Under the pieces are notes generated by a model. The model searched no databases. It had not been told where the DNA came from and saw only the letters and a program-made list of their open reading frames with translations. From the NCBI RefSeq assembly GCF_964355755.1, contig NC_092676.1, positions 29,399,871 through 29,463,870 of the forward strand: a stretch of DNA of 64,000 bases. The letters run 5' to 3'. The DNA comes from Antedon mediterranea. Its lineage: Eukaryota > Echinodermata > Crinoidea > Comatulida > Antedonidae. The number at the start of each line of letters is the position of its first letter. Position 1 is the stretch's first letter. Position numbers and translations under genes: made by a program. This document shows positions 5,001 through 44,400 of this stretch, piece after piece.

Positions 5001-8000
5001 ACAATACCACTATCTGATGTTACCCAGTAGAGTAATTTATACTTCAGTACATATGCATTGTTTCTGGGTTTTGTACAAAACTTCCTCAACTCATTTAAAT
5101 GAAGGTTATCACAGGACATTCTGCTAATGTTCATGTTGATTTTTCAGCTTTGTCTCTTTGTGATATACTATTTATAGCACATTTTAAATGTTACAACAGA
5201 ATTTCAAATTATTTTTTTGTAGTGTGAACATCATTCTCTTGAATTTGAGACTTTTCAAAGTTCTGTACCTTTAGTAGGAATAATCATATTTTTCACACTA
5301 GAGTTAAATCCATTGAGAACCACTCAACCAGTTTGTAGGCCAACCTTATCCCTTTAGTTAACATTAACCAACCTAAACACTTAGTAACTGATCATTACAC
5401 CATCTTTTACCTCCGCCAAGGAGGTATATGTAATCGGTAGCGTGTTTGTTACTTGGCAAAAAGAATTTTGCCAAGTATAGTATTTACTTTGTTTGTATGT
5501 ATGTATGTTTGTATGTATGTTTGTTTGTTAGCACGATAGCGCCTACAGTTTTCAAGTTATCTTTCTGAATTTTTGGGTGTAGATAGGTATTTACTTTCAG
5601 ACCATGCCTATTGAAAATCAACAAAATTGGTTTATTAATAACTTCACAAATAACAAAAATGATATTATTTACAGACCGGCTAGTGTTAAAAGATAGGAGA
5701 CAATTTTCAAAAGCCGGCGAGCAGTCTTAAAGTAACAAGTGTACTGAAATTGCATTTTCTCGAGAACTACTTGTCCAAAAAACATCATTTTTGTACAAGA
5801 GGCAAGAGTTATAAATTGTGATTTGTAATTTTTAAAATATAATTTGATTTAATATACAAGTTTTTTGATACGAGTAGTTTTAAAAAACCTATTTCTTTTC
5901 AAATTCACCTGTTTGTTTTTCACGTTGCCGTTCTATTGTTATTCAAATTAAACTATTGTTAGTTGATAATTAGTTTTTTTAGTACTGTACTTGCGTGTGT
6001 CCTTCCTTATTTCATTCTGTACATAGGTATATATATATATTTACAGAACATGCCTATTAATTTTCAGGAAAACTGATATATTGGTCATGTCTCAAAAGCT
6101 TATCTTCTGTACGATATATTAAATAGCACGCATTCTGTCTTTTTTTTAATATGGGCATATTCTTTGATATGGACCAAAATATTAGTCGACTGGTCACGCG
6201 GTTAAGCTTACTACATGGGGTTAAGGCAGAAGCGCCGCAAATCCGCACAGCTTCAAGACACTCCTCGACCATTATTCTGGTCAATCTTGATTTTAGAAAG
6301 GTCATTGTTGCAATGCCGGAATTGTTTGTATTAAAAATTATTTAAACAAATTATTAACCTTATCACTATTTTAACCATGTAAAGCTAATACCTAAAGCAA
6401 AAATTGTATCTTTCAACATGCTCCCAGTCAGTGGATATATTTTGCCAAGTACTTCACTCAGTTTCTAAGTGCTTTCATTTGTTTGTTTGTTTGTTAGCAG
6501 GATTACTCAAAAAGTAATTAAAAGATCTTTACCACAATTAATATACGGATAGATATGTGGTCAAGGACCATTCCATTAAATTTTGGGACCATGGTCCCAA
6601 TTCTGGACCACTTTTTCGGTATACTGTTCAGACCTGCTAGTGTTAAAAGATAGGACAGAATTTTCCAAAAGCCGGCGAGCAGTCTTAAAGTAACAAATAA
6701 ACTAAAATTGCATTTTCTTGAGAACTACTTGTCCAAAAAACTTCATTTTTGTACAAGAGGCAAGAGGTATAATTTGTGATTTGTAAATTTAAAACATAAT
6801 TTGATTTAATGTGCAAGTTTTTTTGATGCGAGTAGTTTAAAAAACCTATTTCTTTTCAAATTCACTCGTTTGATTTTCGCGTTGCTGTTCTATTGTTAGT
6901 CAACTGAAGCTATTGTTAATTGAAAGGCTTGTTACATAACCATTACACCAAACTCGCATACACATGCTTGTAGTGAAATTAGCCTAAATCACAAACAGCA
7001 TTAAGACACAGACAAATATATATATATATATATTTCTTTTTTACCGGAGAAATCTTATGTAGGAGAATTTTACAGTAGGTGGAGGTATGCACTCTCGGAG
7101 CGTCTTTCTATAGTTAACAAATGTTTTTTATCCCAATATCTTCAGAATTACTCAAGGTACTGATAATAGCTTTGCTCCGCAAGATGAGGGGAAGACATCA
7201 CAGAAACCAGGAATGGATGCCATTAGAGAAGATGAGGGGAAGACATCACAGAAACCAGGAATGGATGCCATTAGAGAAGATGAAGAGATCGAGCAACAAG
7301 AGTTTCAAGATGATGACAATGAAATTGGAAACACTGAACAAGGTGATTGTAAGTGAAACAAGGTTTCCAATTCTGCCTCCAGCTCTATAATACAGACCCC
7401 TGATGGCCTCATTATCAGGAGTTTCGAATGAAATACTAAAGTGCCTTTTCAATTTTAAGACCAGCAGCGAAATTGGCCTAAATTCAGCCTAAATCTCTGT
7501 CTACAGTATCAAAGTTTATGTGACCAAAAAAATGTGATCGATGCCCATAATATGGAATGAACATGATGATGTCATATCACTACCATATTTGGGTATATCA
7601 CTACCATATTTGAGCATATCACACTTTTGTTGTTAAACAAGTTTGATAGTGTAGACAGAGTTTAAGGCTACAGTATATAGTTCATAAATTGTTAGCCAAT
7701 CATACATTGTGTTGTATTACAATGAGTGTATTAGATTTTGCAGCTGCTTATAAATTTTGTTTTGTATTATCATTTTAGATGTAGAAAAGAAATTTATTGG
7801 TCGAACATCCTCCAGGCAGGTAGCACCAACTGCAATGGCTACAGGCATCAGTTTGGCTGCTGAGGATCTCACACCAGTTTCGCCTCCAAGAGGTATCAAG
7901 GGAAGCCAAGTAACACCGTCTCCACCTACCAGTAAACCAGCTTCTCCTCGAGGTGACCTCCCTCCCCCTAGATCACCAAAGGGCCGACAAACCACGTTTG

Positions 8001-20414: not shown

Positions 20415-23400
20415 ATGGGAATGGACGGGGATGTAGCAGGAGTGAGAATTTCTCCTCCTGTTATTGAATTTTTTGATGCTGACGCTGATACATTGTACAC
20501 TGTAAACTTGAATGTTCAAAACATAAGCAAATTCAGCAAGCAAATTAAATTTCATGGACCAGAATCAGCAAAGGTACGTATCAAAAAGAAATGAGATTTT
20601 GAATTTGTAATAGACATAGGCCTAGGCCTAGCCTAGGCCTACGTTTCTTTTCCAGATGTTGTCAATGTAGGCCTAGGTTACTAATACTATTTATTTGTTG
20701 TTGTTTTAAAAAATAAATGCATGCATGTCTGTTTTCAATTAATAATTTATATATTTTGTTGCAACTAAAGTTTGAATTGAAAGTCAAAAACCCAGAGAAA
20801 CCTATAGCACCAGGGTTAGAAGTGACAGCTACTCTATCATATACAACAGAAGAACCTCAGGATTGTCAAGACAGAATTATTCTTTTGGTAGACGAAGACA
20901 TTATTGAAATTCCAATTTTTGCGTAAGTGAACAAAATAGAATCTGAAACTCAAAAAAATTTGGTTAAATATTCTAATTTAAAAAAATATATATTTGTAAT
21001 TATTGTTATTTGTAAAAATAATTTATCTATATATCTGTAAATTATTAATATTAATATTAGATAATTATTATTTATTATTTATCATCATAAAGTCACCTTT
21101 TATTCCTTTATTTTTCAAAATATTTTCTTTTTTTTAGTTACAGCCCTCAACCACTTCTCGATGCGGATGAAGAGGTCGATTTTGGAACAGTCGTCTGCAA
21201 CGGCAAAGTGCTAACAAAGCAATTCTCTATCTTCAACCATGGAACTGTGTCTGGTACATTTAAACTGCAGTATAGCGGAACAGAGCCTATCACTATTATT
21301 CCAACCAGTGGTACAATTAAACCAAATTCTGGGCAGTTTATCAAGGTAAAGTATTAACAAGTTTACAAGCATTATGTACGCCCACATCTCAAATTTTGTG
21401 TTCGAGTATGGAATCCGTATCTTCAAAAGGACATAAATGTAATTGAAAGAGTACAACGTCGTGCGACTAAATTAGTTCCATGTATCCGTTCATATTCATA
21501 TGAAGATCGACTAAAGCTTCTTGGCCTAACAACCTTGTACGACAGAAGAATTCGAGGTGACCTGATTGAAGCATATAAAATTGTTAAAGATTTCGAGGGT
21601 GTAGCCAAGGATGACTTTTTCCAAATGAGAAGTAACATTAGCCGAATTACTCGAGGACATCACCTGAGATTTTTCAAGCCTATTTTCCATAAAGGATTGA
21701 ACTGTAGAAGACATACCTTCTCGCAACGAGTAATAAACCATTGGAACAGTTTACCAGCTGACGTTGTTAATTCTGAGACCACTAACACCTTCAAGAATTG
21801 CATCGACACAATGTAGTTGATATGGGGTTAAAAAGGCATTCGCCTAAACTTTCCCATTATAGCTAAACTAAACTAAACTAAACTAAACTAACATATATTT
21901 AAAATAAAAATATTGATATAATAAGGAATTTATTCTGAAATAGCATTTTGATGTATGTATGTGGAATTAAAACTGACTGGCAGATAACTATCTTTAGGAA
22001 TAACTTACAACAGTATCCAATAAATGAATAAAAAACATGAAAACAACTTTTAAAATCTTTTTATTTTGTCATGGTCATTCTTTTTTTTTTCAGGTTGAAT
22101 TTATCACCAAGATGACTGGTACACTAAATGAACAAGTTCAGTAAGTCATAGTAAAATTAATGAAAATTTATACCGAATTTTATAACAAAATTAAATTTGT
22201 AGTGTCTATTCTAAGATAATTATTCCACCATCATAATTCTAATACTGTCTGTATGTGTATTGTCCTAAATCAAGGTATATCAAGGTAAAGTATAATTCTA
22301 TTACTGTCTTTTTTTCTGCTCTCTAGACTACAACTCGCAAATCAAGATGCTTCTACCATAACTATCAAAGCCGGCATTGTTGAGCGTTGTCTTGAGTTGT
22401 TGTCTGTTGATGATGAAGATCAGATTGACTGTGTAAGGTTTGGGTGTTCTTATTATGGCACAGATAAGATGGAGGCTGCTTACCTTTATAATAACAGTCC
22501 ACATCCTGTTAGTTTTGTCACAGTTTTGCTGGAAGACGCTGAAGGAATGGAAATTGTAAGTATTTTTATTTAGCGTATATCGTCTGGTTAATTCCACCCC
22601 CGTAGAACACAAAATTGGGCTGACGTTGGGGTGGGAATATACCCGGGGAAACCCTGGTTCAGGAAAAAAATGATCGTGGTAAGCATTTCTTGTAAAAACT
22701 CACCTGAACTGGCTATAGAGAGAGGCCTATATCCAGATCAAAAGTCAATACTGGGATTATACCTAGGGATATGCCTGTTTGTGAAATCAGACATAAAGTA
22801 GGGAATTAGACCAGAAGTGGGATTATACCAGAGGATATACGGTAATATACTGTTAACTTTGAAGTAATTTTCACGCCCTAGTGTGTAGTGGTTTTTTCTG
22901 CATTATCATTCCGTAGATGATATTGGATTAATAGTTTGTTAATTTTAAAACTTTTTGTTTGTTGAAAGTGAAATTGAATAAATATTATACTTTGTTTCTT
23001 TTCTAGGGGAATGATCTGACCAAGTCCACTGTCGGAACTTTAGCTACCACTAACCTACAAAAAGTGTTAGCCAGCACTAACCCTCTGACCACCCTGGTCA
23101 CTACGTACCCAAACCAGGGTAACCTAGGTGCTTACGAAAAGATTCCAGTGTTCTTTCGTTTTAGCCCCAGATACAACACCCTTAAGCAGGGTTGGAAGAG
23201 TACAGCGACACCTCCACCTAGGCAGGACTTCTCACTCTTTATGCATTTTGTCATGGTAGGCAGCAGTAAAGGATTTGCAGAGGAGGAGGGCCTGGGGGTT
23301 GGAAGCCCAGAAGGTGTGTTTATTGCTCCTATTTTTATTGATTAAATGCTGAAATATTTTAAAGTCTCTTTATTCAGGATGAAATAAGATCTATCTATTC

Positions 23401-26400
23401 ATCATCATTGTTAGATTTTATTGATTACATCTTTTTGTCAAAAATTGTTTGGAAATGATTACTGCGTTTTTCAGGAGCAAAATTGGAGATTGCATTAACA
23501 GGGACAGCTCTTCCAGTCCTGTTGACCCTTAACCCCATGACCCACTTTGACATGGGTAACTGTCCTGTCGGGGAACATGTTGATGCTCTGTGTGAACTAC
23601 GTAATGAATCAACCATACTACCAATCGAGTTCATCTTTAACAAAATCGCTCAATACACAATCTATCCAGAGTTTGGCAAGCTTAGGCCTGGGGCTGTACA
23701 AGATGTTATCATATCGTTTAAGCCAAATCAGTTTGGTACATTCAGGTAAGTGCTTTATAGAAATAATAATAATATACTTTATTTTCACACGAAACACTTG
23801 AATTACCCAAGGGTGTTTTTCATCAAGGCCGTGCAAGGCCATACATTAATACTGAACATCAACAAAAACGAATAAAAGAGGAAAATAAACATAAAACCCG
23901 ATATTTTTAAACTATGTTTCGGGGATAACAATGAAAAAAAGATTTATGTAGTTTAACTTAATTTTAATATATTTACATTTAGGATTATCCCAAAGGTTAT
24001 TTCAAAGCTTACTGCCATAAAATGATAGACTATTTTTCTTATATTCAGTTTTTGCTTTAGGAATTTTAAAATTTCTACTATTTGCTATATAAGTTATAGT
24101 TAAAGGTGCTTATCTTTAGTTTAAACCAATTCAGTTTAGCCAATCAGTTTTAAGTGCCAATTGCCATGTGTCTTGTTCATGTCATAATAGGAGTATGCAG
24201 TTAATGGATGTATTGGGAGCAGTTGCTGATAATGCTCCTCAATCACACCCTACTGACATCCACAGGGAACCAATCCACACCCTGCATGTCTCACTTCATG
24301 GTACTAGTAATGCTGTCACAACTGAAAAGAAACCAAAGTTTAATCCAGGTATATATATTGTGTCCTATAAAAAAAACTACATGTACTTCAATTGAGTTCT
24401 TCTTGCAAACTATAAAAAAAGATTTAAAATATGGTATTCATATACATAACTGTAGACTGTATATGAGTAAGAGATAACTAGATTGTCTTGTGCTTGATAC
24501 CATTGGTTAGATATATATAATATATCAAAAATAAAAATAAAACTTGGTTACTATATGTACTTTGTCTTTAATAGGAATAACACCGCTAGTGGTTGGTGAA
24601 GTTGGCCAGTTTGTCTCTGTTACAACAGACGAAGCCTCTTCCTATAAACCTAGAGCTGCTATGTTGAATGCCCCAAAGACCAAGGGACTGCACACATCAA
24701 AGTCTGCGTCAGGCATCCGCGACTCCTCAGCACTTGTTGCATTTCCTAATGATAGGGCACGAAGTATCAGGCCTAGCTATCGCAGAGAAAACTATAAGTG
24801 AGTATGGAAAAAATTATTATTAAATTGAAAAGGTCACAAAAACTATGATGGAAGTAAAAGTTACCAATATCTTTGAATTAGAAATAATTTGTATGTTATT
24901 TCTTTCTTCAGAACCATCTTTACAAAATCCGACAGACATACTTACGTTGATCCTGATTATGCGTATGATGACAATGAGATACAAGACATACAAGAACACA
25001 AGAATAAATACAATCAGTATTTAGTAGAATGCAGAGAGAAAAGAAAGGAGAAAACAAGTTCAAAGTAAGTCTTATTCATGTACATATAACAAACTAGTTA
25101 AAATAGCTGTTCAGATTTCAAACGTAGTTTAAAACCGTTAGATGTATGGATATGTGTAATAGCAAATAGTAAGACACAAACGTGCAAACTCTCTTTTAGT
25201 ATAGATATAATTAATTGAAGCAGCAAATTGTATTGCTGTTGTATTAGTGTGTAATTCAAAAGTTTAGTTTAACAGACTAATAACCTTCCTAACTCTATTT
25301 TCTCTGTTTTATTTTAATAGGGAGTTCAAAACATTGAACACTGCTAAAGATATTGGAGTGAAGCCAGCATCCGGACTAAAACCATCAAAACTGAAGATTG
25401 AAGACATGAAAAATGTTGTCAGAAGTAAGAGACATCATTAATGTCATTTCCATCACCAATATATGCATTTTCAAAAATCTACAGTAGTAATCATTTAATA
25501 AAAGTGGAGTTGTGGCTTGGTGGTTATGATGCTTGGCTACTAATCCAAGGGTCTTGGGTTCAAGTCCTATCATATGGCAGAATTTTGTTTATGTAGAGCA
25601 TCTTGTGTCTGTTTGTCTTGTGAACAGGATTGCCACCTTTAAGAAGGATAGTCAATGAATTCACTTATGGTTATCCTTGGCAATTTGCCTAAATAGAAAA
25701 AAATTAATAAAAAATTAATAACTTTTGAACATTTTTTCTCTTTTAGCTCCAACCCCACCAAATAGTGGAAATCGTATGTTAAGCTCCAAGTGGTTAAATA
25801 ACAAGGAGATGTTATCAACTGGTAGGCCTAGTAGTGGGGGCTTGAACGCTGTACCTATGACACCTCAAGAGAAAGCTGACTGTAAGCTACAGCTGTCACC
25901 GCAGCAGCTCTATCAAGTCATCATTGGTAAGTTAATACCGTTCTTAAGCTCTGTCTACACTATCAAACTTGATGTGACAAAAAAATGTGATGTGCCCGTA
26001 CTGTATATGATGATGTCATATCACTAGCATATTTGGGCATATCACACTTTTTTTGTCAAACTACTGTAGTTTGATAGTGTAGACAGAGCTTTATTTGAGG
26101 GTATGATGAGTATGGTTTCCTCTTCCTCAATTAAGACCACCCAATGAAAGAACACTTAACACCCAAGCCAGTTCTGGGGGTAGACCTTCTTTCCTCCATA
26201 GCAATACCCGTTAAGAAGATATACTCAGTTCATGTAGTTGATTCATTAATTTTGTTTATACCATTTTAGGACCACCAGTGATTGACTTTCGTCGTGTTTG
26301 TCTCAAATCAACAAGTGCAAGAAGTTTAAACATTGTCAACAATCTTGACCAATACATTCACATCCTAGTTGAGGTAAAAGAGATTATATACTGTATTTTT

Positions 26401-29400
26401 AGAATTAATTTACATTTATTATAAATTCTTAGTGTAAGGCTATCTTCACTATCAACATGTATATGAAAAAAAAATTTTATGTGCCCATATATCTGAAGAT
26501 GTCATATTGCTACCATAATTATTTGGGTATATCACTATCGTATTTGGACAAATCACACTTTTTTTAGTCAAACTAGTTTGATAGTGTAGACAGAGCTTAA
26601 GGGAGTGTGCTGAATAGAACAGTCAATGATATGATATATTCTTTCTTCAGATTGATTGCCGTGAGCTGCGACAGACAAGTCCTCTATCTCAAGTTGTTCC
26701 ACCAAACTGTAAAGCAGAACTTCCACTAATCTTTGAGTCAAACACTAAAGGTGTATTCCAAAGGCAAGTCTTTCTTCATTTTTCAGGCAGTAATGTGTCC
26801 CTGTTACTCTCATCATTGCTTCAGTATTTGGTTTCTTACAGGAGAAAGTCTGCAGCACCTTGGTTCTCTTTATACATTTATTTCTTTTTTACTGCTTAGT
26901 TTTACTAATGTTAAAAGTCTCTTTTATTTTGTGTAGAAATGTGAAATATTCAGTGAATAAACATCATAAGGATCACATTGTGGTGAAGGCAGATGTTGTA
27001 GCAGTATCTCTTACCCTGCCTACAGACCTGCTAGAAATCAAACCAACTCCAGGAATGCCTGCTGAAGCTGGTATGTTGTATATTATTACTATCTTATTTT
27101 ATGTTATTATTACCTTAACTAAAGCTCTGTCTACATGATCAAACTAGTTTGACAAAAAAGTGTGATGTGCCCAAATATGGTAGTGATATGCTCAAATATG
27201 GTAGTGATATGACATCATTGTGTCCATAATATGGGCACATCACTATAATGTTTGATAGTGTAGTTAGAAATTTAGCTTTAGTTAAGCTCTGTCTACACTA
27301 TCAAACTTTGTGACAAACAAATGTGATGTGCCCAACACTACCATATTTGGGCACATCACACTTTTGTTAATAGTGTAAACGGAGCTTAAAGAGGAAACAA
27401 GTACTACAGTATGTTAAATTAAAGTATATTCATAAATTGTATTTCAAGACATCCTACATCTTCACTATCATCACTATTCATAAATTGTATTTCAAGACAT
27501 CCTACATCTTCACTATCATCACTATTCATAAATTGTATTTCAAGACATCCTACATCTTCACTATCATCACTATTCATAAATTGTATTTCAAGACATCCTA
27601 CATCTTCACTATCATCACTATTCATAAATTGTATTTCAAGACATCCTACATCTTCACTATCATAACTATTCATAAATTGTATTTCAAGACATCCTACATC
27701 TTCACTATCATCACTATTCATAAATTGTATTTCAAGACATCCTACATCTTCACTATCATCACTATTCATAAATTGTATTTCAAGACATCCTACATCTTCA
27801 CTATCATGACTATTCATAAATTGTATTTCAAGACATCCTACATCTTCACTATCATCACTATTCATAAATTGTATTTCAAGACATCCTACATCTTCACTAT
27901 CATCACTATTCATAAATTGTATTTCAAGACATCCTACATCTTCACTATCATAACTATTTTCCTTAAAGGGTTAAGAAGTGTGATAAACCTGAAAAATGAA
28001 AGAAATTTCCCAGCAGAGTTTACCTGGCAACCCGTGCTTGGAGAAAGAGGAACTGCATTCTCAATTCGTCCTGCTACTGGTGAGTGGCTCCTACAGATTA
28101 CCAATTTGGTGCCTCCTACATGTTACAGATAATGAGTTTCAGTTTCAGTTTATTTTCCATTTCAATTTATGAAAATAAGATAAACAACTTATATGGATGG
28201 ATAACCGTAAGAGCGAAGCTCGATAGCCGGTCACCTGTTAGTGCAGTGACATTACGGACAACATAAAGACAGGACAAAGGTGCAATACATAACAAGACAT
28301 GTGCACACTTGTGTTGCAACCCCTTGGATAAAATAATATATTTATATAAAGGAGAAAACTGAAAATTAGATATTATATTTCTTTTTGATCATAAAATGAT
28401 AATTTTTAACTTACTTCTTAAGAAGGTTAAGTGAGTGAGTGATTGTTATTGTTCTAAATAAAGCCTTTTTGAGAGAGGGGACACTTGAGGACCAAACTAA
28501 GTTTCCCCATAATAGTGGTGTCTACTGAGTAGAGGTATCCCTATTGTAGCCATTGATTCATGTCAAGCCTTGCGTTTAATTAATCTAAATGTATTTATTT
28601 CAAGGAATGGTTGATGCTTTTAAGGACCTTGATTGTGAAGTGGTGTTCCACCCATCTTACCATGCACCTGAAGAAGGAGAGTTCATTCTACAGGTTCATG
28701 GTGGTGAGGAATCAAAGCTGAAATGCATCGCTGATGTAAGTTTTGCCTTTTTTTAAGTTTAAGTTTAAGTTTCATATTAATACAAACAAACACAAATTTT
28801 TAAGAAAAGATTTGAAAAAATAACCGAAACGAATCAAAACGAAACTGACAAAACAATCAATAACTCAGTAAAATATTCATCATTTTTAGATTGGTCCTTT
28901 TACATATTTAAGGAAAAAAAAGAAGTATACATTGTATTTTAGTTTATAATGAATGCATTATACCTTGAAATAATTTGGTGATAAATTTCTTTTTCCAGCT
29001 TGGTCCCACACAAGTGATGTTTATGGAAAGACGTATTTTATTTGGACAAGTTCCACTCCATCTTACAACAACACAGACAGCTGTATTGCATAATAACAGC
29101 CAAAATCATGCTTACTTCCAGGTAAATCTAGCCTTAAAAGAGCACTATATAATTCTTTATTATTATACACAGATAATACTTAGGTAGCCCTAAGCTCTGT
29201 CTACACTATTAAACCAGTTTGACAAAAACAGTGTGATGTGCTCAAATATGGTAGTGATATGCCCAAATATGCTATAATAATAGTGATATGACATAATCAT
29301 GTATATATATACACATTTTTTTAACCAAACACCAGGCCACAGTGCTGCTATGACTGAATTGCTATATCATAAACATATTTTTTGTTTTTTAAGATTATAG

Positions 29401-32400
29401 ACCCAAATCCAGTTCCTGGCCTGATGGTGTCCCCCGTTCAAGGTGTGGTACCGGTCGGTGGTAACACGGAGCTTAAGATATATCTCACACCAGGTGCTAT
29501 TATGAAGTTTGATACCAGACTAGAGGTCTCAATTCGAGGATGGAAGACAATTGAACTAAGAATGGGAGGAACAGTCTGTCCCCCTTCTGTTAATATTGAT
29601 GTGGTATGAGCTTTTAATATATTTGATTGTCACTGTCGGTTTTGGTCCATTGCATAGTAAGCAGTTATTTATGTATTTTGAACAACTATCTGATCCAATG
29701 AACCAGGCAGCTAATTGCCATACTGTAGGAACAATGGAAATTCTCGCTTCCCACTTACAGTATTTAATTTGTATTTTCTATTTTATTTGAATAACTTCTC
29801 TTTTTATTTCAGCCTTCATTCCACTTTGGTGGTGTTTATTGTGGTTCTAAGCATGTGCTTCCATTTAAGCTTATCAATAAGGTGCGGACACCAGCCAAAG
29901 CGATCTTTGACCTTTCACGCTATCGAGACTTTTCCCTCAAGTTTGACACTGACGTGATGGCAGGTATACATTGTTTTCTTATTTGTAGCAACATTCAAAT
30001 TTGGTTAATATAAAATCTCATTTTTAGTCTTTTATTTGAAAAATTTACCTAAAAATATCTTACCACAAGACCAAATAAGAAATGAAAAAAACATTAAAGT
30101 ATAAATTATTAATGTTTATTTTTGTGATAATAAGATTGTTTACTAAGTATTTACTTCTTTTTTATTTTTTATTCAGAAACTGAGGACATCTTAAGTCCAG
30201 GCATCTATAAAGTTTCTCTTAGAAGAGAAGAAACAATCAAGTGCCAGTTAATATTCCGTCCAACAGAAGTAGCGTCTTACGACTTCAACATCATTGTCAC
30301 CATAAACCAGACAGATCCACCATCACCGAACCCGACTCCTTTCCCACCAACGCCTGCACCATCATCAAAGAGCATTCAACACATCATCACTCCGAGACCG
30401 ATGGTTGTGACCATTGCAACTCCCAAAAGGAAAATCATTGCCACAGCTCTGCGACAACCACTCCAGTTATCAAACTATCACATTGACTTCTCTTTGCCTT
30501 CTGGATTCAGAGACAATGGAAGTCTTCTTGGTGAAACAAGAGGAACGCTTCTTGTGAATAACAGCGATAAAGACATCACTTGGAGTCTGGATCTGGATAA
30601 ATGTGGGAAGGCCACTGAAGATGGTGTCTTCCGGTTCCTGATGCCTTCTGGTGCGCCATTCTTTACTCACAGGAAAGGTGGTGCGGGTGTTGAAGATACT
30701 CTTTCTTCTGGAGAGACATACCCGCTTGGAATCATGTTCTGTCCAGGTAAATTTGACTTCGTTTTACAAATTGTACACAATTAATAGTAGGGTAGGCCTA
30801 CCTGTATCCACAGAATTTAATTAAGGGGCTTACCATGAATTTTAACCTTAACACAACAAATTTGTTCTTTCTTATACTGAGCTGCACCCATCCACCAAGT
30901 TTGAAGACCATGCAACCCCTAGTCTCTGAATAAAGCCGGACAGACAGAGAGAGATTTGGTAAATTATAGTAAAATTATTTTTTTGGTTGAATTCTTATTC
31001 TTTCTAAATGTTTAACTCTTTAGAGGAACCAGGTGAATACAAAGCTGACATTCCTATTATCCTGAATGGTAACAAGACACACACTTACCAACACCTCAAT
31101 ATCCATGGCACGCTGAAGTCACCCAGATTGACCTTTGACCCTATTGCTCTTGTTCTTACACCAGTTCCTTTGTCAACTGAAGTGTCTGCAGATTTCACTA
31201 TACAAGCTGCAGGCTTTACAAAGTGAGTTTTGTTTTTTTGATAATTGTTTTGAATTTTGGTCTTTGGTTCAAACCATGTAAAGCTCTGTCTACACTATCA
31301 AACTAGTTTGACAAAAAAAGTATTATGTGCCCAAATATGGTAGTGATATTCCCAATTATGGTACTAGTGATCATCATGTCCATATATGGGCACATAACAT
31401 TTTTTGTCACATAAAGTTTGATAGTGTAGACAGAGCTTAAGTCCTAAATGTTCCCCTTTCTATTGTTCATACATGGCTGACTTAGATATAATTAGGCCTA
31501 TAGCAAATATAATATGTTGGATTTGATTATGTTTATATTTTTTCTACCATCTATAGAAAATGTGTAATTGATGTGGAACTCCCTGACATCGAGCTTGAAG
31601 ATGGTAGTACTTCTTCCATTTTATCGGTCACTTTTCCAGATGGTCAGACCATTCAGCCATGCTCTGGTGATGATGGACAAGAGGAACCGTTTGTTCTAAA
31701 GTGTAGGGTCACGTTCAGTTCCCCAAAACCTGTCTCATTCTCTCAGCCAATCAAGTTTATTGATGAGATTGGTAATAGGTAACTGGTTTTATAAATTGTT
31801 TAATTAATTAATTAAAGTTATAATACAATCTTTTATAATAGTTTGCTATGCTACACTATCAAACTTGTTTGACAAAAAAAGCGTGGTGTGCCCAAATATG
31901 GTAGTGATGTGCCCAAATATGGTAGTGATGTGCCCAAATATGGTAGTGATGTACCCAAATATGGTAGTGATGTGCCCAAATATGGTAGTGATGTGCCCAA
32001 ATAAATGGTAGTGATGTGCCCAAATATGGTAGTGATATGACATCATCATGTCCATATATGAGCACATCACATTTTTTGTCACATAAAGTTTGATAGTGTG
32101 GACAAGGCTTTAGGATAGGATAGAGTACTATTTTATACAACTGTTTGTATACATGGGATGTAACAAACTTGTACCTTTAATTCAAATTTTTGTATTTCAC
32201 TGTTTAATGTGACCACCTTTGCTCATCATATGAAACTTTCTTCCGATTTGATTTCATATTAATAATATATTATAATTTTATATTTGATATAAATTATTTT
32301 AAAGTTTTTCAATTATGGTTACCGCCACTGCTGACAATTGTTTGCTTACTGCCTACCACTTCATCGCTAAGCATCGAACTGACTACCAGATAGTAACAGA

Positions 32401-35400
32401 GCAGGGGCGGTCGCTGAAAGGCAGACGTTCATCGTCAAAGGAGAGCGTGAATGTTGGAGAAGCTGTGATCCTACCTGTAGAAACACCTTCCAGGCCTTCA
32501 ACACGTAACAGTTCAAGTACAAGCTCTAGATTTGGTGCTACATCGTCAACTTATGATGAATCAACTGCTAGTGTTACAGGTAATATAGGTTAACAAGTTC
32601 CCCTTTTACCTTGTTTATTTGTTATTCATTATTTACATAGTTAAAGAAAAGGATTCTACACATTTTACAGACTATTGTTTCTTTGTGTTTGATCAAATAA
32701 ATAATTTTCTTTCAAAAAGACATTTATTTTCCTTCATAGCAATACAAAATAAAATACAGAAATGATAAGGTTTAAATAAAAACTTGATTCTAGTGAGTTG
32801 AGATTCTTCACAAATTCAAGAAAATTTACACAAAATTGTTAAAAATTTAAAAATAGATCTGTAATTAGCATGAAAGAATACATATATTTAGGAGGACTTA
32901 GCAATAAACTTTCAAAAGGCAGACACCGATATCAAATTATTTTTGCCTATATTTTGACATGACATTACTTGCCACATTATTATATACCGCAGAATCAACT
33001 TATCGTAGTACTCCACGGGATGGCGCTGTAAACCACGCAACAAATGGTAGCTCCAGTTATGAACATGAGAGCAGGCTAGGCCTAGTGTCACGCTCTCTAG
33101 GCTCAGCAGCTTTCCCTGATGAAGACTCAGAAGAAGGGGTGTTTCATCATGAGGTGCTCATGGCTATCCAGAGGTGGATTACTCTGCATGGATGGACTGG
33201 AGGACCTTGTCCAGCCTCTGTCCCAGATACTTTGAGAAGGTACTTATACAATTACTGCTATAGTCAACTCTCCTAATACCGGACTCTTTGAAAACTGGAA
33301 ACTCTAATGAAACCAGACTTCTTGAAGACCAAAATGTTCCAAATTCCTTTTTACCATTAAAAGCACATTCCGAATACCAGACTTTCCTGAAAACCATACA
33401 TATTTGGCCAGCCCAAGGGTGTCGGGTATTGGAATACTACTAATTAACAGTAGTTGTCTCTACTACATCAGTTCTAGTACATGAGTGAAGCATATTTTAT
33501 TTAACAATCAATGTGTGTTACATGCTTTCATTTTTCTTTTATAGTGGCATGTCTAAGAACCCAGTCAACGATACTGTTCGTGATAAATCAGTCCAAGGAA
33601 ATCCAGCCACCAACAACCAGAAGAAAAAGTTTGCCAAAACCATCTTTGACATGATCGCTCATTTGAGTGGTAGATCTATTCCAGGTATCCCGATTGACCA
33701 TGCACTTCCAAGTGACCCAACTGAGAGGGCACTGCAACTACATTGGATGTACTCAACATTGCTGACATTCTTAAGGTGGGTATGCTTCAAATGAATTACA
33801 ATTTTATTTTAATTGCCATTAACTAACATTGGTTGCATGTAATGAACCTGACCAATGGTCTTTGATACATGCATGGTACCAAAGACTATGATACAGAAAC
33901 TGTCGTGGTGTGGTCATAGCCTATGTAACCTTTCCAATTTCAAAATGTTGTATTCTCAGAAATGCATAGAAAGATGCAAACATTTAAACTTATTTTACTT
34001 TGGATTTATACAGGGGATTTCTACTTATAATCTGTGCTTCAGAGATTCCTCCTTTCCATTCATTTGTTTTGTAATGATTATTTATGTATGTTTATGATTT
34101 TTGTGAATGGAAATAAAGAAACAAACATACATATTCAACGATTTATATATGACAGGAGTCAAGGTGCATCTGTAGCTAGCATCAAACCCGAGTACTTATT
34201 TGAGCCAGACGATTATCAGAGATACATGATGATACAACAGAAGCTGCAAGAGAAGGTTGAAGGCAAGTCCCAGGTGTCACCTCTCCAGGCACTCAGAGTA
34301 GACACTACCCTGGATGAGGGCCTCTTTGAATCTGTATCTAAGAGAGCCTGGACAGATCTACTGCTTCAGTCAATCAAGGTAAATATTATTTTTATTGTAT
34401 TATTAGAATAGTTTTTATATTTTTCTAGTTTTGGCTCTGTCTACACTATCAAACTTTATGTGAAAAAAACTTATGTGATCTACCATATTTAGGTATATCA
34501 CTGCCATATTTGGCCACATCACATTTTATTTGTCAAAATTGTTTGATAGTGTAGACAGAGCTTTAAAATATAACTAATCTAGGAAAGTAGGATAAAATAA
34601 TAAATGTTCCTTCATACCTTTCGTTTAATAATGTTTTTTTATCATTTTCATTTTTACTCAAACTGCACGTAACGTATATCATTTGTTTTCACATCATCTT
34701 TTCTATAAATATCTTTATTCCATTTTATTATTAAAGCACACTTGTTTGCAACTAATGGTGATTACAATGTATTGGTGAAATATTGTGTTCATTTCTTATT
34801 TACTATACTCAAGTGATTAGGTACCTGGTAATGAATAAGTTTGCAAATAGCATTGTGAACAGAGTAGTTTAGCTAATCAAATAGGTTTCCTCTAGTTATA
34901 GGCTTTTATCTCTACAGTATACTAGTTTGGTGTTTTTGTTTGGAACTTTTAAAATTCTTAGTCTTCATACTTTATCAAGGCATTTCCTCATTTTATTCAA
35001 TATTCTTCTCTCTATACGTCTATTTATGCATATTTTTCTCTAGATTAGCATTACTTCTCTTTTACTCTTTATCAAATGCACTTTTTTATACCGTACATTA
35101 TTGCAACTCTTGACTATAATTACGTTTTCTTTATTCTTTATAATCTACAGGCTGATACATCTTGCTTTGTTTTCATATTATATTTATTCCATCTTTTTAA
35201 TGTATTTACATTTAATTGTTTCAATGACTGTGATGATTGCAATTATCTTTAACTCATTCCATCTAGTTGTGATTATAATATTCTTTTTAATGTATTTACA
35301 TCTATACATTTAATTGTTTCAATGACTGTGATAATTGCAATTATCTTTAACTCATTCCATCTAGTTGTGATTATAATATTCTTTTTAATGTATTTACATC

Positions 35401-38400
35401 TATACATTTAATTGTTTCAATGACTGTGATGATTGCAATTATCTTTAACTCATTCCATCTAGTTGTGATTATAATATTCTTTTTAATGTATTTACATCTA
35501 TACAGTTAATTGTTTCAATGACTGTAATGATTGCAATTATCTTTAACTCATTCCATCTAGTTGTGATTATAATATTCTTTTTAATGTATTTACATCTATA
35601 CAGTTAATTGTTTCAATGACTGTGATGATTGCAATTATCTTTAACTCATTCCATCTAGTTGTGATTATAATATCCTTTAAATTTAATGTTTTGTATTGTA
35701 CAAAATTGTATTGTGAAAAAAACTATATTCTTTTGTATTTAAAGTTGTATTAGTATATAAGTCTAGTATTGTCTTATTTTCTAACAACTTGTACAAGATA
35801 AAGTATATAGTGAGAATGTTACACATCCAACATTTAAATTTTTAGAAATTAATTTGCCTACATTACAAAATTTTTTCCTTTTAGGTTCTTGTTTTGTCCA
35901 GAGTTACACCCAGGAGCGTAAAGACGCATGCTACCCCAGGAGGTCAAACACTGCCCTCTATCAATGCAGATCCGCAATCAAGTAATATTTATGGAGTTGG
36001 GGAAAGAATTCTACTTGCCTGGCTGAATCATTACTATGAACAGCAACGGCATTCTATATGGGTCGAATGCAATAAAGGTAAATAAAATACTGTTGAAATA
36101 ATAGATTTGGTTAACCAAGACAAACAGGACACTGAGCTTGCCTTGCCAAGATAGGAACTCGTTAAAAGTCCTTTGATCAAATGTGTGGCTGCGACAAATA
36201 CCAACTAGGTAGGTACTATACTGTACTATGTACATATTCTCCGCAGCACGCAGTGCCTGTTAAGAGGCATGGAACTGATCGTGTCGCAGCCACAGATAAA
36301 CACTTTGATCTTCAGAGCACAGTATCCTGTTGTTAGTTTGCCTTGGGTTAACCCTTTAAGTGACCAATTGAAATTATTATTATTTAAAATATTCAATTTC
36401 TTTAATGCCATAAAGGTTTTTAAATTAAGCTTGTTTTAACACAGCATATTAGTACAAAAAATAAACTGGGAAAACCTAGAGATTTCTTTATGAAAAGTAG
36501 AAAACTTTCCAGATATCTGAATCTACTGACCTACTGTAATAGAGTGGCTGTGCTTTATCTTTGTTTTTTTTGTATGTACTATATGTTACTCTTCTCTTCA
36601 ATAGAAGCACAGTACCTTGTTTTTCATCGCCCAACAGGTAACATTAAGCACAATAAGTTGAACATTAAAGCACTATCAATTGAACATTATGCATGATCAG
36701 TTGAACATTATGCACGATCAATTAAACATTATACATGATCAGTTAAACATTAAAGCATGATCAGTTGAACATTATGCATGCTCAGTTGAAAATTATGCAT
36801 GATGAGTTGAACATTATGCATGATGAGTTTATTTTATCCCTCATGACCATATTAACCCATGTGTATGTGTGTATTGAATGTTGTCCTAATGAAAACTAAT
36901 GTTAAAGTTTTGAATTATTAATTGGAATTGCATTCTGAGGTCAGTAAATAATCCCAAAACTTGGAGAATACTGGGTAATCTTTTCGGATACGGACATGAC
37001 CCACCATCTTGAAGAAATGGAAGAACAGCATCCATCTGACATAACTGCTTCCTTCAAAACACCTCATTCATTCCAGATAATAAATAATATTTAACAACAT
37101 GGCATCCATAAAGGTAAACAACACAGCCTGAGCTAACAGTATTTCAGTTAAATATAAATCTGTTTCAACCATGCTCTACAATAACCTGCTCTGTCTTTAT
37201 TGCATGAATGTTTTGTGATTTTATTTATGTGTTAAAATATGTCATCATAAATCAACATTAATGGTAACATTTAGACATTTTCTTTATACTGAAATGATTA
37301 AAGTGTGGACAGATAAATCATGCTTTTAATTTTCAAACGTAATTCATCTAATTAAATTTAACGACCTATAACTTAATTAGAAACCGATGAGCTTGACAAA
37401 TATATTTGTTATTTTTAGTATAACATAAAAATGATTGCGTATTTTGTTGATTTGAAGTGTAACAATAACAATCTTGTTTTGATGTGAAGGTATTGTTTTT
37501 TTTTTGTGAAATAAGGCTGTGTTCTAATTTGTGTGCTTAATATTGATCAATATTGATTAAGAATTTCAGAAACAAAAACAACTTTTGCATCCTAAATATA
37601 TCACCAGAGTTTACTTCTAAAAATAAATTATTAATTAAAAAACTCTAAATCCCCAGATGAGGACAGTATTGCAGAATAGAAACCTTAGGATGGTGCCATT
37701 TTTCGCACCAGCCATTCCATATTCTTTTATAAAGATTCTTACGAAAGATTTTCACTGTGTTTTTGTTTAATTTCAGGAGGCGTTCCACCGTCCAGATGGG
37801 TAGTGAACTTTGACTATGACCTTTTGGATGGCTTAGTATTGGCTGCACTACTCGCAGCTTACGTTCCATTTCTGGTATGATTCGACAACTATTTTCTTCT
37901 TTGTTTCCTAATTAAACTTAAATGTTCAATTTTTCATATGCCAGGTCTTATTGAGCTTTCATTAAACAAAAAAACACTGAAGAAACAAAATAGAAAAGTG
38001 TTTTTACAAGTTGAAATCATAAGGATTTAATATATTTAATTCCTTTTAATTGTTATTATTTTTAACGGCTCAGATTTAAATTGTATTTCATCTTTAAGGT
38101 AACGACACATCTACGTGATATGTACACACACCCTGCTACAGCTGAGCAGTGCTTACACAACGCACTTAAAGTTGTCAACGCTTTTAAGAGCATTGGTCTT
38201 GATTATGATATACAGGTATGTCTACCTTCTCACTGCAATAAACATGAACTATTTTTTACTTGAACACTTTGGTTAATGACTTAGTTGGAAAATAATGTGA
38301 AGAAGAGCTGTAAAGCCCTTGGCAGTGTTGAAGATAATTTAGTGACATGCTTAACTACCTCTGGCTTATTACTCTACTTAAAATTGTTGAACTCAACTTA

Positions 38401-41400
38401 ACTACTTTACATAAAGGTTATAGTTATTGGGGCAATCTATTTAATGTTTGCCTGGAGATTGTGTTTGCCAATAATGATTATTTTTCAATAATAGACAACT
38501 TGTATGTTGAGGTATTGGAATGATGTATGTATTTGCAACCTCAAGGAAATACTTGTTTATACAACATTGATTTTAATGTACTTTTATCTTTTGTAATCTC
38601 TTATTTTTTACATTATTAAAATATTAATCCCAGGCTATGATCCTAATCTCAGGCTATGATCCTAAATTAATATCATTATATCTTTGTGTCCATTGATACA
38701 GATGTTTACCGGAACTTGTTTATTTCACATTTTAGCTAAAGATATAATTGATCTAATCCGATATCTTGATCTCCAGGTCATAGATATAACTGATCTTAAT
38801 CCAATATCTTGATCCCCAAGTCATAGATATAACTGATCCTAATTCAATACCTTGATCCCCATGTCATAGATATAATTGATCCTAATCCAATATTTTGATC
38901 CCCAGGCTAAAGATATAACTGATCCTAATCCAATAGGTTTATCCCCATGCTATAGATATAACTGATCCTAATCCATATATTGATCCCCAGGCTATAGATA
39001 TAACTGATCCTAATCCAATATCATTGATGCTGCTATGTGTTCATTTATACCAACGTCTGCCACAATATTTACCAAAAAGCTCTGTGGATTTTCTAGGATC
39101 CCTTCATGCAACTGTCACTCGGCAGGTAAGATGAAACAAATCAAACAATTATTTTTGATAGTCATAGCTCAAAAAGATTCCAAAAAGAAAAAAGAACTTT
39201 CTGTTTGGTCAGTTGGAGTGTCATTTTTTTTTTTTTTTTAATATGAAAAAATGCTGTAATAAAAGAAAAAAAAGCTGCACACTTAATGTTTTAAATCAGT
39301 AAATGATACAAAGTAAGCTGCACACTTAATGTTTTAAATCAGTAAATGATACATTGTCTAACTTTCCTTCCTGAAGTTTCTTGATTTTAGCTTTTGTACT
39401 TTTTTATTTTTTTACGTTTTTATCCTATATGGCGTGATGTGTGTTATGTACTGTAAGCATTGTTATTTATGGTACTATAAAGCTTTATTCTCTGTCTGCC
39501 TATCTCATTTAAATTGATGCAGTAATCTTCTACAACACAAGATTTATGTTGTTAAAGCAATTAAGGAACGTAATGAAATGATTAAACAAAAATAAACAAA
39601 CTAGTTAGAACATTTAATTAAAAAACAAGTATATTCTTGTCAAGTATAGTCAAATAAACATTTATTTCTTTCATTTTAAAATTAAAATTAATACATTATT
39701 ATTATTATTTTTGCTTGATTTCCTTTAGGTTCGGTTAACTAATCCAAGTAAGAAGCCGTTGATCTATCATTCATTCATTTCTGGACGGGATGCGAAAGAC
39801 TTCCGACTACCACACGTTAAACAGATTACAGTTGCACCAAAAAGTAACTATGATCTAGTGGTGGAGTTTACTAGCAGGTTTCTTAGACCAGCAGAGGGAG
39901 TGTTGGTACTAGTTGGAAGAAGGCTTGGATCAGCTTGTGGTACAACATTGGTGTTCAATTTGAGGACTTCAATTGATAATATTACCCCCTCTGTGAGTCA
40001 TGTCATATATTATTTATTTTGCCAAATACAATACAAAGTAAGACATAAAACAGTACCAAAGTTAATGAATGAGGCAGGATCACCTAAAAGTTAGAAATAA
40101 AAATAACCATCGAGATGCCTCCACATAGAAATACTTGTACTTATAACATGAATTCCTGAAGAGTCAGTTAATTTTGTATTTTGTTTTAGCATTATGCAGA
40201 TGCCCAGTATGTTTTGTGTAATTTTCTATGCCTTGGTTTTTATAAATACTATTACGTTTTGCAGGCTACCATTAAGTGTGAATCCCCTTGTTATGAACTC
40301 AATAAAGTGGAAATCGACGTTATCAACCCATTCGATGAAGATTGTGAGTTCCGGATGGTTCTGGTTGAAGCAAACGACACATTCCCGTCGATGCCGTCTG
40401 CGAGTAAAACTACCGGTTTGATGAAAACAAAGACCGATAAAACCAAACCCAAAAAAGTGCGCTCACGGGTTGATCATGGACAGAGAGTAGAGCAAACAAC
40501 ATTGCCAACAGTAGAGGATATACAAAGTGAGAAAGACAAGAAAGAAAGTATGTTATTATTATTGATTAGTTGCACATTCCTGTTTAGTTTTGTTATTTAT
40601 ATCTTTAGGCAAATTGCCAAGGATGGCTATAAACAAAATCATTCACTATCCTTCTTAATAACAACAATAACAACATGCTCTTCATAAACAAAGTCTTATT
40701 ACACGTCTTTGGGAGTGGATTTGTAAATTGTCATAATAGAAAAAGTCCTGATTTGAGCCCAGGACCCTTGGCTTGGTAGTCATGCACCACCTAAGCTACA
40801 ACTCCACTCCACTTAACACCCTTGACTTGGTAGTCACGCACCACCTAAGCTACAACTCCACTCCACTTAACACCCTTGACTTGGTAGTCACGCACCACCT
40901 AAGCTACAACTCCACTCCACTTAACACCCTTGACTTGGTAGTCACGCACCACCTAAGCTACAACTCCACTCCACTTAACACCCTTGACTTGGTAGTCACG
41001 CACCACCTAAGCTACAACTCCACTCCACTTAACACCCTTGACTTGGTAGTCACGCACCACCTAAGCTACAACTCCACTCCACTTAACACCCTTGACTTGG
41101 TAGTCACGCACCACCTAAGCTACAACTCCACTCCACTTAACACCCTTGACTTGGTAGTCACACACCACCTAAGCTACAACTCCACTCCACTTAACACCCT
41201 TGACTTGGTAGTCACGCACCACCTAAGCTACAACTCCACTCCACTTAACACCCTTGACTTGGTAGTCACGCACCACCTAAGCTACAACTCCACTCCACTT
41301 AACACCCTTGACTTGGTAGTCACGCACCACCTAAGCTACAACTCCACTCCACTTAACACCCTTAACTTGGTAGTCACACACCACCTAAGCTACAACTCCA

Positions 41401-44400
41401 CTCCACTTAACTATTCTTTTTTCCTATTTAGCAGATACCAATGGCCTGGTAAGCGCATTCTTCTGTTCTCAGAAAATGGTTCACATTGAAGCTAATGGTA
41501 CCACGTCAGTTCAAATTGATTTCTTGCCGTTCAACGTCGGCAAGCGCCAGTGCTCTGTCCTGTTCATCAACGAGAAGGTTGGAGAGTTTCTGTACTCTAT
41601 CGAGGCCACGGCACTTCTACCACTACCATCGTGTTTACCGTTTACGCCAAGTAAACATAGCGTTAGAGTAAGCAGTGCCGCTGCTGCAGGTTGGTATGAT
41701 GTGTCAAAAGGGGTCGGGTCAACCAATTACTTAGTATTAATCTAATGTTTTGTTTGTAATCACTAAGTTTGAGTTTGAAGAATACAGTCCACAATAATAA
41801 TAGTCTATAATTCCCCATGGAATTTTTCAATTCAACTTCAATTTATTGTAGATACATAATAACAAAAATCAGAGTTGTAAATGACAATTGTAGCCCATCA
41901 ACTTTGATAACATTATATATCTGAGATTGAACAACAACAACAAAGTCATTTTTAATTCTCGCAATGTTACCCATTTTGATTTATTAGGCACCGGGAGAGG
42001 TCTCTATGGCGGTGATGATCGAGTTATCTATTGGCGTTGTGACTGCAACCAAGTCCTCAAAGAGGATCTCGCCATTCCACTGACAAACTCGGCCTATGAA
42101 CAAGCGCTGGTCATAGCGGCCCAGCAGCGTATGAACACCACAGAAATCAAGCGGCGGCAAAAGACTGGCACGTTAGCTGCTGCAACCGTCACGGCCGCTA
42201 TTGCAGCTTTGGGATTGTCAGACAGCAAGATCATTCCTGAACAGTCACTGGTGATGTCTGGCAAAATGCAGCCAGAGTCAAAAACATTTGTCGTTGAAAC
42301 AAGCTCAAAGTATTTTTCTGCTCCGTCTACCATTACAATGCCGTCACCATTAGAGGTCAAGGCTCGGTCAGCACAAGAGATCATGAGAAATGGGCAAGTT
42401 GCCAAAAGGTCATCAGTGGGACTGATTGGAACAAAAGGTTAGAGTTGTGTCATATTCATTTGAGACCATACTTTGTATTGACTTGTATTATTGGAAGAGG
42501 TGTTGATTTGTTGACCTTCTCTAGTTCACTTTTTTCACATTCACACATACCTGAAATAAAAATCATACAAATATGGAATGAAATGTTTCTTTTAGGTGTA
42601 ATTCTTGATGAGGGAAGTGTACGTTTACCTGTCAAGTTTATTCCCAAAGATCCCGGACACTACCCTTGTCAGTTGGTGCTTCGATCGTCCAATGACATTA
42701 GAGTTTACCATTTGGAGTGTACGGTCAGCGCTGAGGGCACAGCCGCTCAGATTGAGTTCACTGCTCCTGTTCATCAGTCAATTACGCAGGATATTCCAAT
42801 TGTAAGACTTCTTGTTCAGTTTATGCTATAAAAATACAACTAGAAGTTTTAGATGAACCTTTTCACCAAGAAATTTATAAATAAAAATATGTCCGGTTTT
42901 TCCGGAAAGTCTGGTATTCGGAATGGGTTTTTGAAAAAATGAATTTGAGTGGCTTTAGAGTTTTCAGTTTTCAAAGAGGTGACTGTGTTTTGATAGCAAA
43001 AATACTTTACTTTATACTTTCTTATTACTGTAGATTAACCAAACTAATTTTGACTGGCCGTTGAATGCCTGTGTTGAGGGCGTTGGTTTCTTTGGCCCGC
43101 CCTTCATCCTAGCAAAAGCGATGCAGACAACGTTATACCCGCTTATGTTTAGACCATCTTTTGAATCAGTAATTGAGGTAATTTGATTAATTTACTATTA
43201 TTAATACTATATACTAATATAATATTTTACAATTCACTTTTATTAATCCAAAGGCAAAATGACAACGCTGTGCGTATCAGTGGTTGGAGGCGGCACTCAA
43301 TGAAGATACAAAATAAAATAAGCAAAAAGCTAAATCAAAATGTTCCTCAGTTTAATTTTATTAAGATTTTATAAAAACAAATGATCATTATTTTAAAACA
43401 TTGCAAACAACACCTTTGTATGAACTTTTGAAAACTAAACTAAATGACGTTGATAGTTAAAAGTTTAATGTAAATGTGTCATTCATATTTATGACAACCT
43501 TTGGTGAGATTGTGTTTATCATCTTTGAATGTCAAACATCCCTTTATCTGAAAATGTCAAGAAACAACCCGTAGGTTGTCTAGTAAGAAACAACCCGTAG
43601 GTTGTCTAGTATTTATGATTCCCTGTTCAACATGTCATAAGTTTGCTGTTGGGTTCAATTGATTATTGGAATGGGATGATACAGTTTATTGATTATTGGA
43701 ATGGGATGATACAGTTTATTGATTATTGGAATGGGATGATACAGTTTATTGATTATTGGAATGGGATGATACAGTTTTTAAAGGAATATTTTAAAGTAAT
43801 CAAGAAAATGTATTTAATTAATGTGTTCAATTACAGTATTTTAATTATGACTTTAGAATAATGTTTATTATATAAATTATATAATTTATATAATAATGAT
43901 GAAGGGCTAGTGTTGCCCCAAAGCTCTGCTAACTTTTCTGGCTGTTTTACTTTATCGTTTTGATTTAGCTTTTAGCTTTTTCATGTATCTCCATTGAGAT
44001 CTAGCCACTGATACACACAGCATTGTCATTTTTCAGTAATTTGCCTTTGGATTTATATAAATTATTTTTTTTGTCTTGTGTGAGTTCATCTCACGTTTAT
44101 TTAAATTCTCATTGGTGAATATATTATATACGTATAAGTACATATGTGACAATTAAAAGTAAGTGGATTTATATAAATTATAGTATACACATGGTGAGAA
44201 TATTTCATGAGTTAAAAAATAGAGCAGTCAATTTTTATGCTATTCAGAATTAGCCCTACCCAATACTGAATGACATATGTGATGCATAATTAACCAATCA
44301 AAATATTGGAAGAAAATATCTTTGGAAGGTGGTTCATGTATTTTGAATTGAAATATAGTGAAAGGATGTGTATATAACTTAAAATATTATTACATTTTGT

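Follow-up and report, generated by a model that had tools for sequence, protein, structure and literature searches.

Within the 64,000-nucleotide stretch of DNA analysed here (the window), a 43-bp tandem array at the 3' end of a CFAP47 intron repeats the intron end together with the first codons of the following exon, and we read it with high confidence as a 'mirage'-type minisatellite (38740–39028), the intron having grown in a splice-neutral way as a segment spanning the 3' splice site was duplicated in tandem. Tandem Repeats Finder gave a period of 43, 87% matches and a score of 401. The array runs over the intron/exon junction and stops 38 nt inside exon 29; it consists of six units upstream of the exon and a seventh that runs into it, with unit starts spaced 43, 43, 43, 43 and 42 bp apart. 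Each unit is built from two parts, the intron end (common form TTGATCCCCAG) and, after it, the initial ~30 nt of the exon (GCTATAGATATAACTGATCCTAATCCAATA). Five upstream units share 27, 27, 27, 29 and 27 of 30 bases with the exon start, and the leftmost one shares 20 of 30 in an ungapped comparison owing to a 1-nt deletion. The best other 30-mer in the window reached 19 of 30 (126,804 places, both strands), a background that rules out chance as the source of the similarity between unit and exon in the five better-preserved units. The initial annotation, made from the sequence of this stretch, had described a minisatellite composed of a splice acceptor and the first codons of the exon, and these identities bear it out; a lack of similarity between unit and exon, which it had named as one of two findings that would count against it, was looked for and is absent. 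The extent of 38630–39125 that it had assigned held in part: the array is real, but the array proper begins at 38740, and the repeats at 38625–38665 form a separate array. As regards the mirage trait that units at the cluster edge escape homogenisation, the first bases of units 1, 5 and 6 and of the exon's own unit are GCTA, and the middle units 2–4 have GTCATAG, the units being too few for a conclusion.

A dispersed repeat was ruled out, as the segment 38600–39130 matched the genome (354 Mb in 18 contigs) at one place, the locus itself, in a search that passes over very common words. Other minisatellites abound in the window, with 16 merged arrays within CFAP47. Even so, the view that an ordinary minisatellite, intronic or dispersed, adjoins the exon here by accident is hardly credible, given that five of the six upstream units carry the first codons of the exon at the identities listed above and that the genomic match is confined to the array's own locus.

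CFAP47 spans positions 20,433 to about 57,190 on the + strand of the window, and our model of the gene has 47 coding exons and hence 46 introns. Queries assembled from the modelled exons matched the CFAP47 chain of PDB entry 9ijj (chain name Cilia and flagella-associated protein 47; we take it to be the mouse protein) across most of its 3,184 residues, and matched FAP47 in 7n6g, presumably from Chlamydomonas, more weakly. The exon at the array is the 29th coding exon in the present model; the initial annotation had labelled it exon 31 and regarded it as a conserved CH-domain exon. Its place in a CH domain is supported by a Pfam CH score of 39.6 bits against a cut-off of 26 when exons 26–29 were joined as the query; a shorter query gave 18.1 bits, which is under the cut-off. 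Both the 9ijj and the 7n6g chains align without gaps over the junction at 38991 and retain DI--PNP, which argues that the coding part of the unit is ancestral and that the intronic copies are derived. Judging from these alignments, the coding part of the 43-bp unit is old and the intronic copies descend from the exon. No Rfam family matched the whole window at gathering scores.

Features of the CFAP47 array and of the kinesin array discussed below. Positions are those of the window unless a contig is given; scores are those of the CFAP47 acceptor matrix.
Feature	Position	Strand	Remarks
Intron 28 (model), containing the upstream units	38216..38990	+	from the exon model; previous exon ends at 38215
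Probable older decayed copy	38625..38699	+	CCAGGCTATGATCC units, then 38657–38699 resembling the exon beyond the 43-bp unit
T-rich acceptor at left edge of array	38716..38735	+	38736 scores 9.0, top AG of the intron; use would give a stop after three residues
43-bp tandem array ('mirage'), 6.7 copies, intron end plus first ~30 nt of exon	38740..39028	+	Tandem Repeats Finder
Upstream acceptor CTCCAG	38771..38776	+	38777 scores 5.1
Upstream unit with AG one base off (CCAAG)	38815..38820	+	38821 scores 3.2
Upstream unit without AG (CCATG)	38857..38863	+	from the sequence
Upstream acceptor CCCCAG	38900..38905	+	38906 scores 8.2, above the exon's own
Sole upstream intron AG with an open frame	38935..38936	+	38937 scores 2.7; would add 18 residues, VYPHAIDITDPNPYIDPQ
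Acceptor position of last upstream unit, AG lost (CCATG)	38943..38949	+	from the sequence
Own acceptor of exon 29, GATCCCCAG	38982..38990	+	38991 scores 6.6, 14th lowest of 46
CFAP47 coding exon 29 of 47 (model)	38991..39125	+	phase 0; starts AIDITDPNPISL; C-terminal part of CH domain; 135 nt
Kinesin intron, 1,525 bp, mostly array	G000:C5:31793978-31795502 (loci L015 and L011)		next exon GSERQSKTGASGQ

Because protein homology and frame fit the acceptor at 38991, we infer that it is the one used, in agreement with the earlier proposal that the real exon uses the last unit. For a comparison of splice acceptors along the array, a matrix was built from the 45 other CFAP47 acceptors, all of which are predicted; their leave-one-out scores had a median of 8.7 and reached down to −3.9, so that a few of these acceptors may be wrong, and the underlying model had misplaced donors at exons 3 and 6. 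The AG is kept in four of the six upstream units (in one of them shifted by a base), and the remaining two read CCATG. Plausible acceptors retained in some upstream units had also been proposed by the initial annotation; the scores of the AGs at 38736, 38777, 38821 and 38906 are given in the table; the CTCCAG that it had placed before GTCATAGATATAACTG was located at 38771–38776. Since two upstream AGs (38736 and 38906) outscore 38991, acceptor strength as measured by the CFAP47 matrix does not explain the choice of 38991. Among 1,191 AGs elsewhere in CFAP47 introns, 3.2% score at least 6.6. When translated in the phase of the previous exon, all of the listed upstream intron AGs lead to a stop except 38937. 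The exon's own unit and four of the six upstream ones carry the branch-point-like motif CTAAT, which sits 20–21 nt ahead of the junction position. Across the gene, YTAAY lies upstream of 17 of the 46 acceptors compared to about 20% of random intron stretches, and CTAAY upstream of two of the 46 compared to about 5%, the latter showing no enrichment.

These observations bear on a reading in which the upstream units would be working decoys that compete with 38991 and yield stop-bearing products, CFAP47 output then depending on unit number. In line with it are the two AGs scoring above the exon's own acceptor and the CTAAT that four of the six upstream units carry 21 nt ahead of the junction position; the loss of the AG in two of the six and the account, in excerpts of PMC3087553, of lancelet mirages without splicing disturbance argue against it. 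We consider this reading quite improbable, and the upstream units are at most putative decoys. The last upstream unit raises another one, as it is 42 bp long, without stops and in frame with exon 29, which makes an in-frame extension of 18 residues from 38937 possible: the unit would be in the course of being absorbed into the exon, the AG at 38935–38936 giving rise to an isoform whose 18 extra residues repeat AIDITDPNP. This is very unlikely, however, because the score of this AG lies at the 7th percentile of the 45 other acceptors, the unit's own acceptor position has become CCATG, and the 18 residues would fall inside a CH domain that aligns gap-free to the 9ijj chain.

The sequence shows that a 43-bp segment, which begins in the last part of a CFAP47 intron and reaches ~30 nt into the exon, was duplicated in tandem to give the seven units. 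According to the favoured model of splice-neutral intron growth, a duplication across the 3' splice site leaves a complete acceptor at its downstream edge, and as long as the acceptor beside the full exon and its donor is taken, the gene would be unharmed and the intron would merely be longer. The complete exon, in frame and with its donor, is continuous with the last unit alone, such that a working protein would need the acceptor at 38991. Our guess is that this last acceptor would be chosen by pairing with the donor over an exon of normal size (135 nt), and messages from upstream copies would carry early stops and be removed. The upstream copies would be intronic and largely neutral, lengthening the intron and decaying.

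Further upstream lies what may be an earlier round of duplication (see table). The separate array at 38625–38665 is made of pieces of CCAGGCTATGATCC (19 bp, 2.2 copies), and the stretch 38657–38699 aligns with the exon and extends past the 43-bp unit. Of 1,000 shuffles, none scored as high as the whole stretch, and seven of 1,000 scored as high as the portion that lies past the unit. An extension anchored at this copy gave 17, compared to a maximum of 12 at 1,500 control positions. It counts against such a copy that the exon body alone scored 21 at the 38657–38699 stretch, when the top score among 1,269 window tiles was 28. With moderate confidence, we regard 38625–38699 as a probable decayed earlier copy of acceptor plus exon.

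All modelled CFAP47 introns were compared with their flanking exons in 92 intron-side tests (46 introns, both sides), for which the same model with misplaced exon 3 and exon 6 donors was used. Four sides scored higher than all of their controls, namely the acceptor side of intron 28 (62, control 22) and the donor sides of intron 6 (33, control 24), intron 3 (25, control 22) and intron 45 (20, control 18), the last being a 10-nt match that we take for chance. In intron 6, the end of exon 6 with its donor recurs once, in decayed form, at positions 24103–24157 (score 37; reached by 0 of 500 shuffles, maximum 33). The intron 3 signal (score 33; 0 of 500 shuffles, maximum 31) stems from a direct repeat (21336–21354 and 22275–22293, 18 of 19 positions alike), one copy of which holds the exon 3 donor CAAG|GTAAAG. 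As the two copies flank a stretch with a frame that we take to be the end of a reverse transcriptase, the repeat resembles a target-site duplication in which a splice donor was copied. The 46 CFAP47 introns contain one clear junction array. Three of the 16 merged arrays within the gene lie within 25 nt of an acceptor, compared to 0.63 expected, in a post hoc and weak test (P 0.023). Two arrays stop shortly before acceptors, namely 27427–27958 (48 bp, 11.1 copies), 10 nt before that of exon 14 (model), and 40764–41411 (54 bp, 12.0 copies), 20 nt before that of exon 32 (model); at this closeness, their units would form the branch-point region. A 21-bp unit like GTGATGTGCCCAAATATGGTA was seen in three introns (27162–27211, 31883–32036 and 34483–34522), in one of them seemingly in the opposite orientation, and may be dispersed. 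Upstream of CFAP47, a 48-bp repeat at 7181–7283 (2.1 copies, 100% matches) is situated in an open frame and repeats a 16-residue peptide.

A survey of exons of other gene families in the same genome revealed a second mirage. The survey covered the exon matches in the fetched loci, i.e. 50 of 134 kinesin, 28 of 140 kinase and 62 of 91 dynein heavy-chain matches, amounting to 140 exon matches and 280 sides, each compared with 100 shuffles; many of the kinase matches extend over almost the entire domain as one open frame and are less informative on junctions, and two dynein genes appear to be recent duplicates. The kinesin and kinase exon matches fall on contigs C1 to C11, of which the eight with a listed length are 22 to 41 Mb long. 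Six of the 280 sides scored above their 100 shuffles, and a kinesin array on C5, a different contig from that of CFAP47, was the only clear junction array among the 140 matches. The intron in question (see table) holds 21 upstream copies of the acceptor and the first ~20 nt of the exon, which are 70 bp apart except for the first step (59) and the last (68), and the AG is present in 21 of 21. By the CFAP47 matrix, the first of its acceptors scores 6.7, the 20 internal copies 2.2–3.5 and the exon's own 7.4; as the exon's own acceptor outscores the upstream copies, acceptor strength may matter in this array. Selection against decoy AGs was considered for the CFAP47 array, in which the G of the AG belongs to the most variable columns (three changes in the six rows with a letter), yet three other columns equal it, and the idea is likewise unsupported by the 21 upstream kinesin units, all of which keep the AG.

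As to the other sides above their shuffles, kinase locus L053 (G000:C10) has a 127-bp stretch at the match end (2162–2288) that is duplicated ~300 bp downstream (2471–2597) and does not form an array. Dynein locus L061 has a 22-bp array of 2.7 copies between two closely spaced exon matches, and the remaining three sides were weak (26–28 versus 23–27), the one inspected (L016) being a 16-nt match. Arrays at most 60 bp away were found for seven of the 50 kinesin matches, including that of L011; the read at L015 turned out to be the far end of the L011 array, and inspection by eye of the arrays near the kinesin exons of L005, L006, L009 and L017 found no exon copies. Clear junction arrays are thus rare yet recurring, with one in 46 CFAP47 introns and one in 140 surveyed matches. 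The two dynein heavy-chain genes mentioned above (C1:2208666-2211317 and C1:2590790-2593453) are situated ~380 kb apart, with alike exon spacing and near-equal scores, and are likely a recent duplication that could be used for comparing array lengths.

The CFAP47 mirage matters mainly through its recurrence, in strong form, in the kinesin gene: since one genome has two such arrays, in genes unrelated to each other, mirages may be more widespread than the lancelet reports suggest. With its succession of similar acceptors, the last alone leading to a working protein, such an array is a natural test of 3' splice-site choice, and mirages may lengthen introns without harm to the gene. A more far-reaching proposal, which we consider rather unlikely, is that outside lancelets the birth of junction minisatellites recurs as a mode of intron growth, that the copies stay live 3' splice sites, and that the number of units (up to 21 upstream ones in the kinesin gene) tunes the amount of productive message per allele.

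In lancelet Adh3, intron/exon boundaries repeated in tandem were given the name mirages, and the lancelet globin genes BflGb6 and BflGb9 contain them too; the BflGb6 mirage has units of 150–160 bp that are 81–100% alike, with six and three units in two haplotypes, and RT-PCR suggested that the globin mirages leave regular splicing unaffected (PMC3087553). Lancelet TnC and PGBD5 are named as further mirage genes in the available portion of PMC3902484. As in the lancelet cases, in which some of the tandem boundary copies carry splice signals and the gene's own boundary stands alongside, the unit of the CFAP47 array spans the intron/exon boundary, and many but not all of its repeats have splice signals, four of the six upstream units keeping the AG. 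As far as the excerpts allow a comparison, the cases differ in that the arrays described here reside in CFAP47 and a kinesin gene, in a genome that is probably not that of a lancelet, have 43-bp and 70-bp units and come from one assembly. Searches of this genome found a let-7 gene, a mark of bilaterian animals, and gave no match for COX1, for GFP (a lancelet sign), for GH6 (a tunicate sign) or, with 60 of 131,623 candidates scored, for mir-2 (a protostome sign). Two observations point away from a lancelet, given the GFP genes and chromosome numbers of lancelets: the lack of a GFP-family match, which is no proof of absence, where the kinesin and kinase searches yielded 134 and 140 matches, and the restriction of these matches to 11 contigs. 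No report of the same anatomy outside lancelets was present among the literature matches listed, which were mostly open-access and available in part. The CFAP47 array also resembles NAGNAG acceptors, at which several AGs three bases apart compete for one exon, in that multiple AGs precede a single exon, but the spacing here is about 43 nt and each AG has its own upstream context. In human genes, repeats located at exon boundaries reportedly give rise to new introns (PMC2812944, in excerpt); these internal tandem repeats in segmental duplications are similar in that boundary minisatellites alter gene structure and may become intronic, but they were derived from recent human paralogs and transcripts, and the excerpt describes no series of acceptor plus exon start. 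Novel introns in Drosophila, reported in a paper whose available part also names NAGNAG tandem acceptors (PMC2891723), share with the CFAP47 array a tandem duplication across a splice-capable site, there coding sequence with a proto-splice site, that later became intronic; in the Drosophila cases as described in that part, however, the intron is new and originates within an exon, whereas the CFAP47 array extends the 3' end of an intron that was already present.
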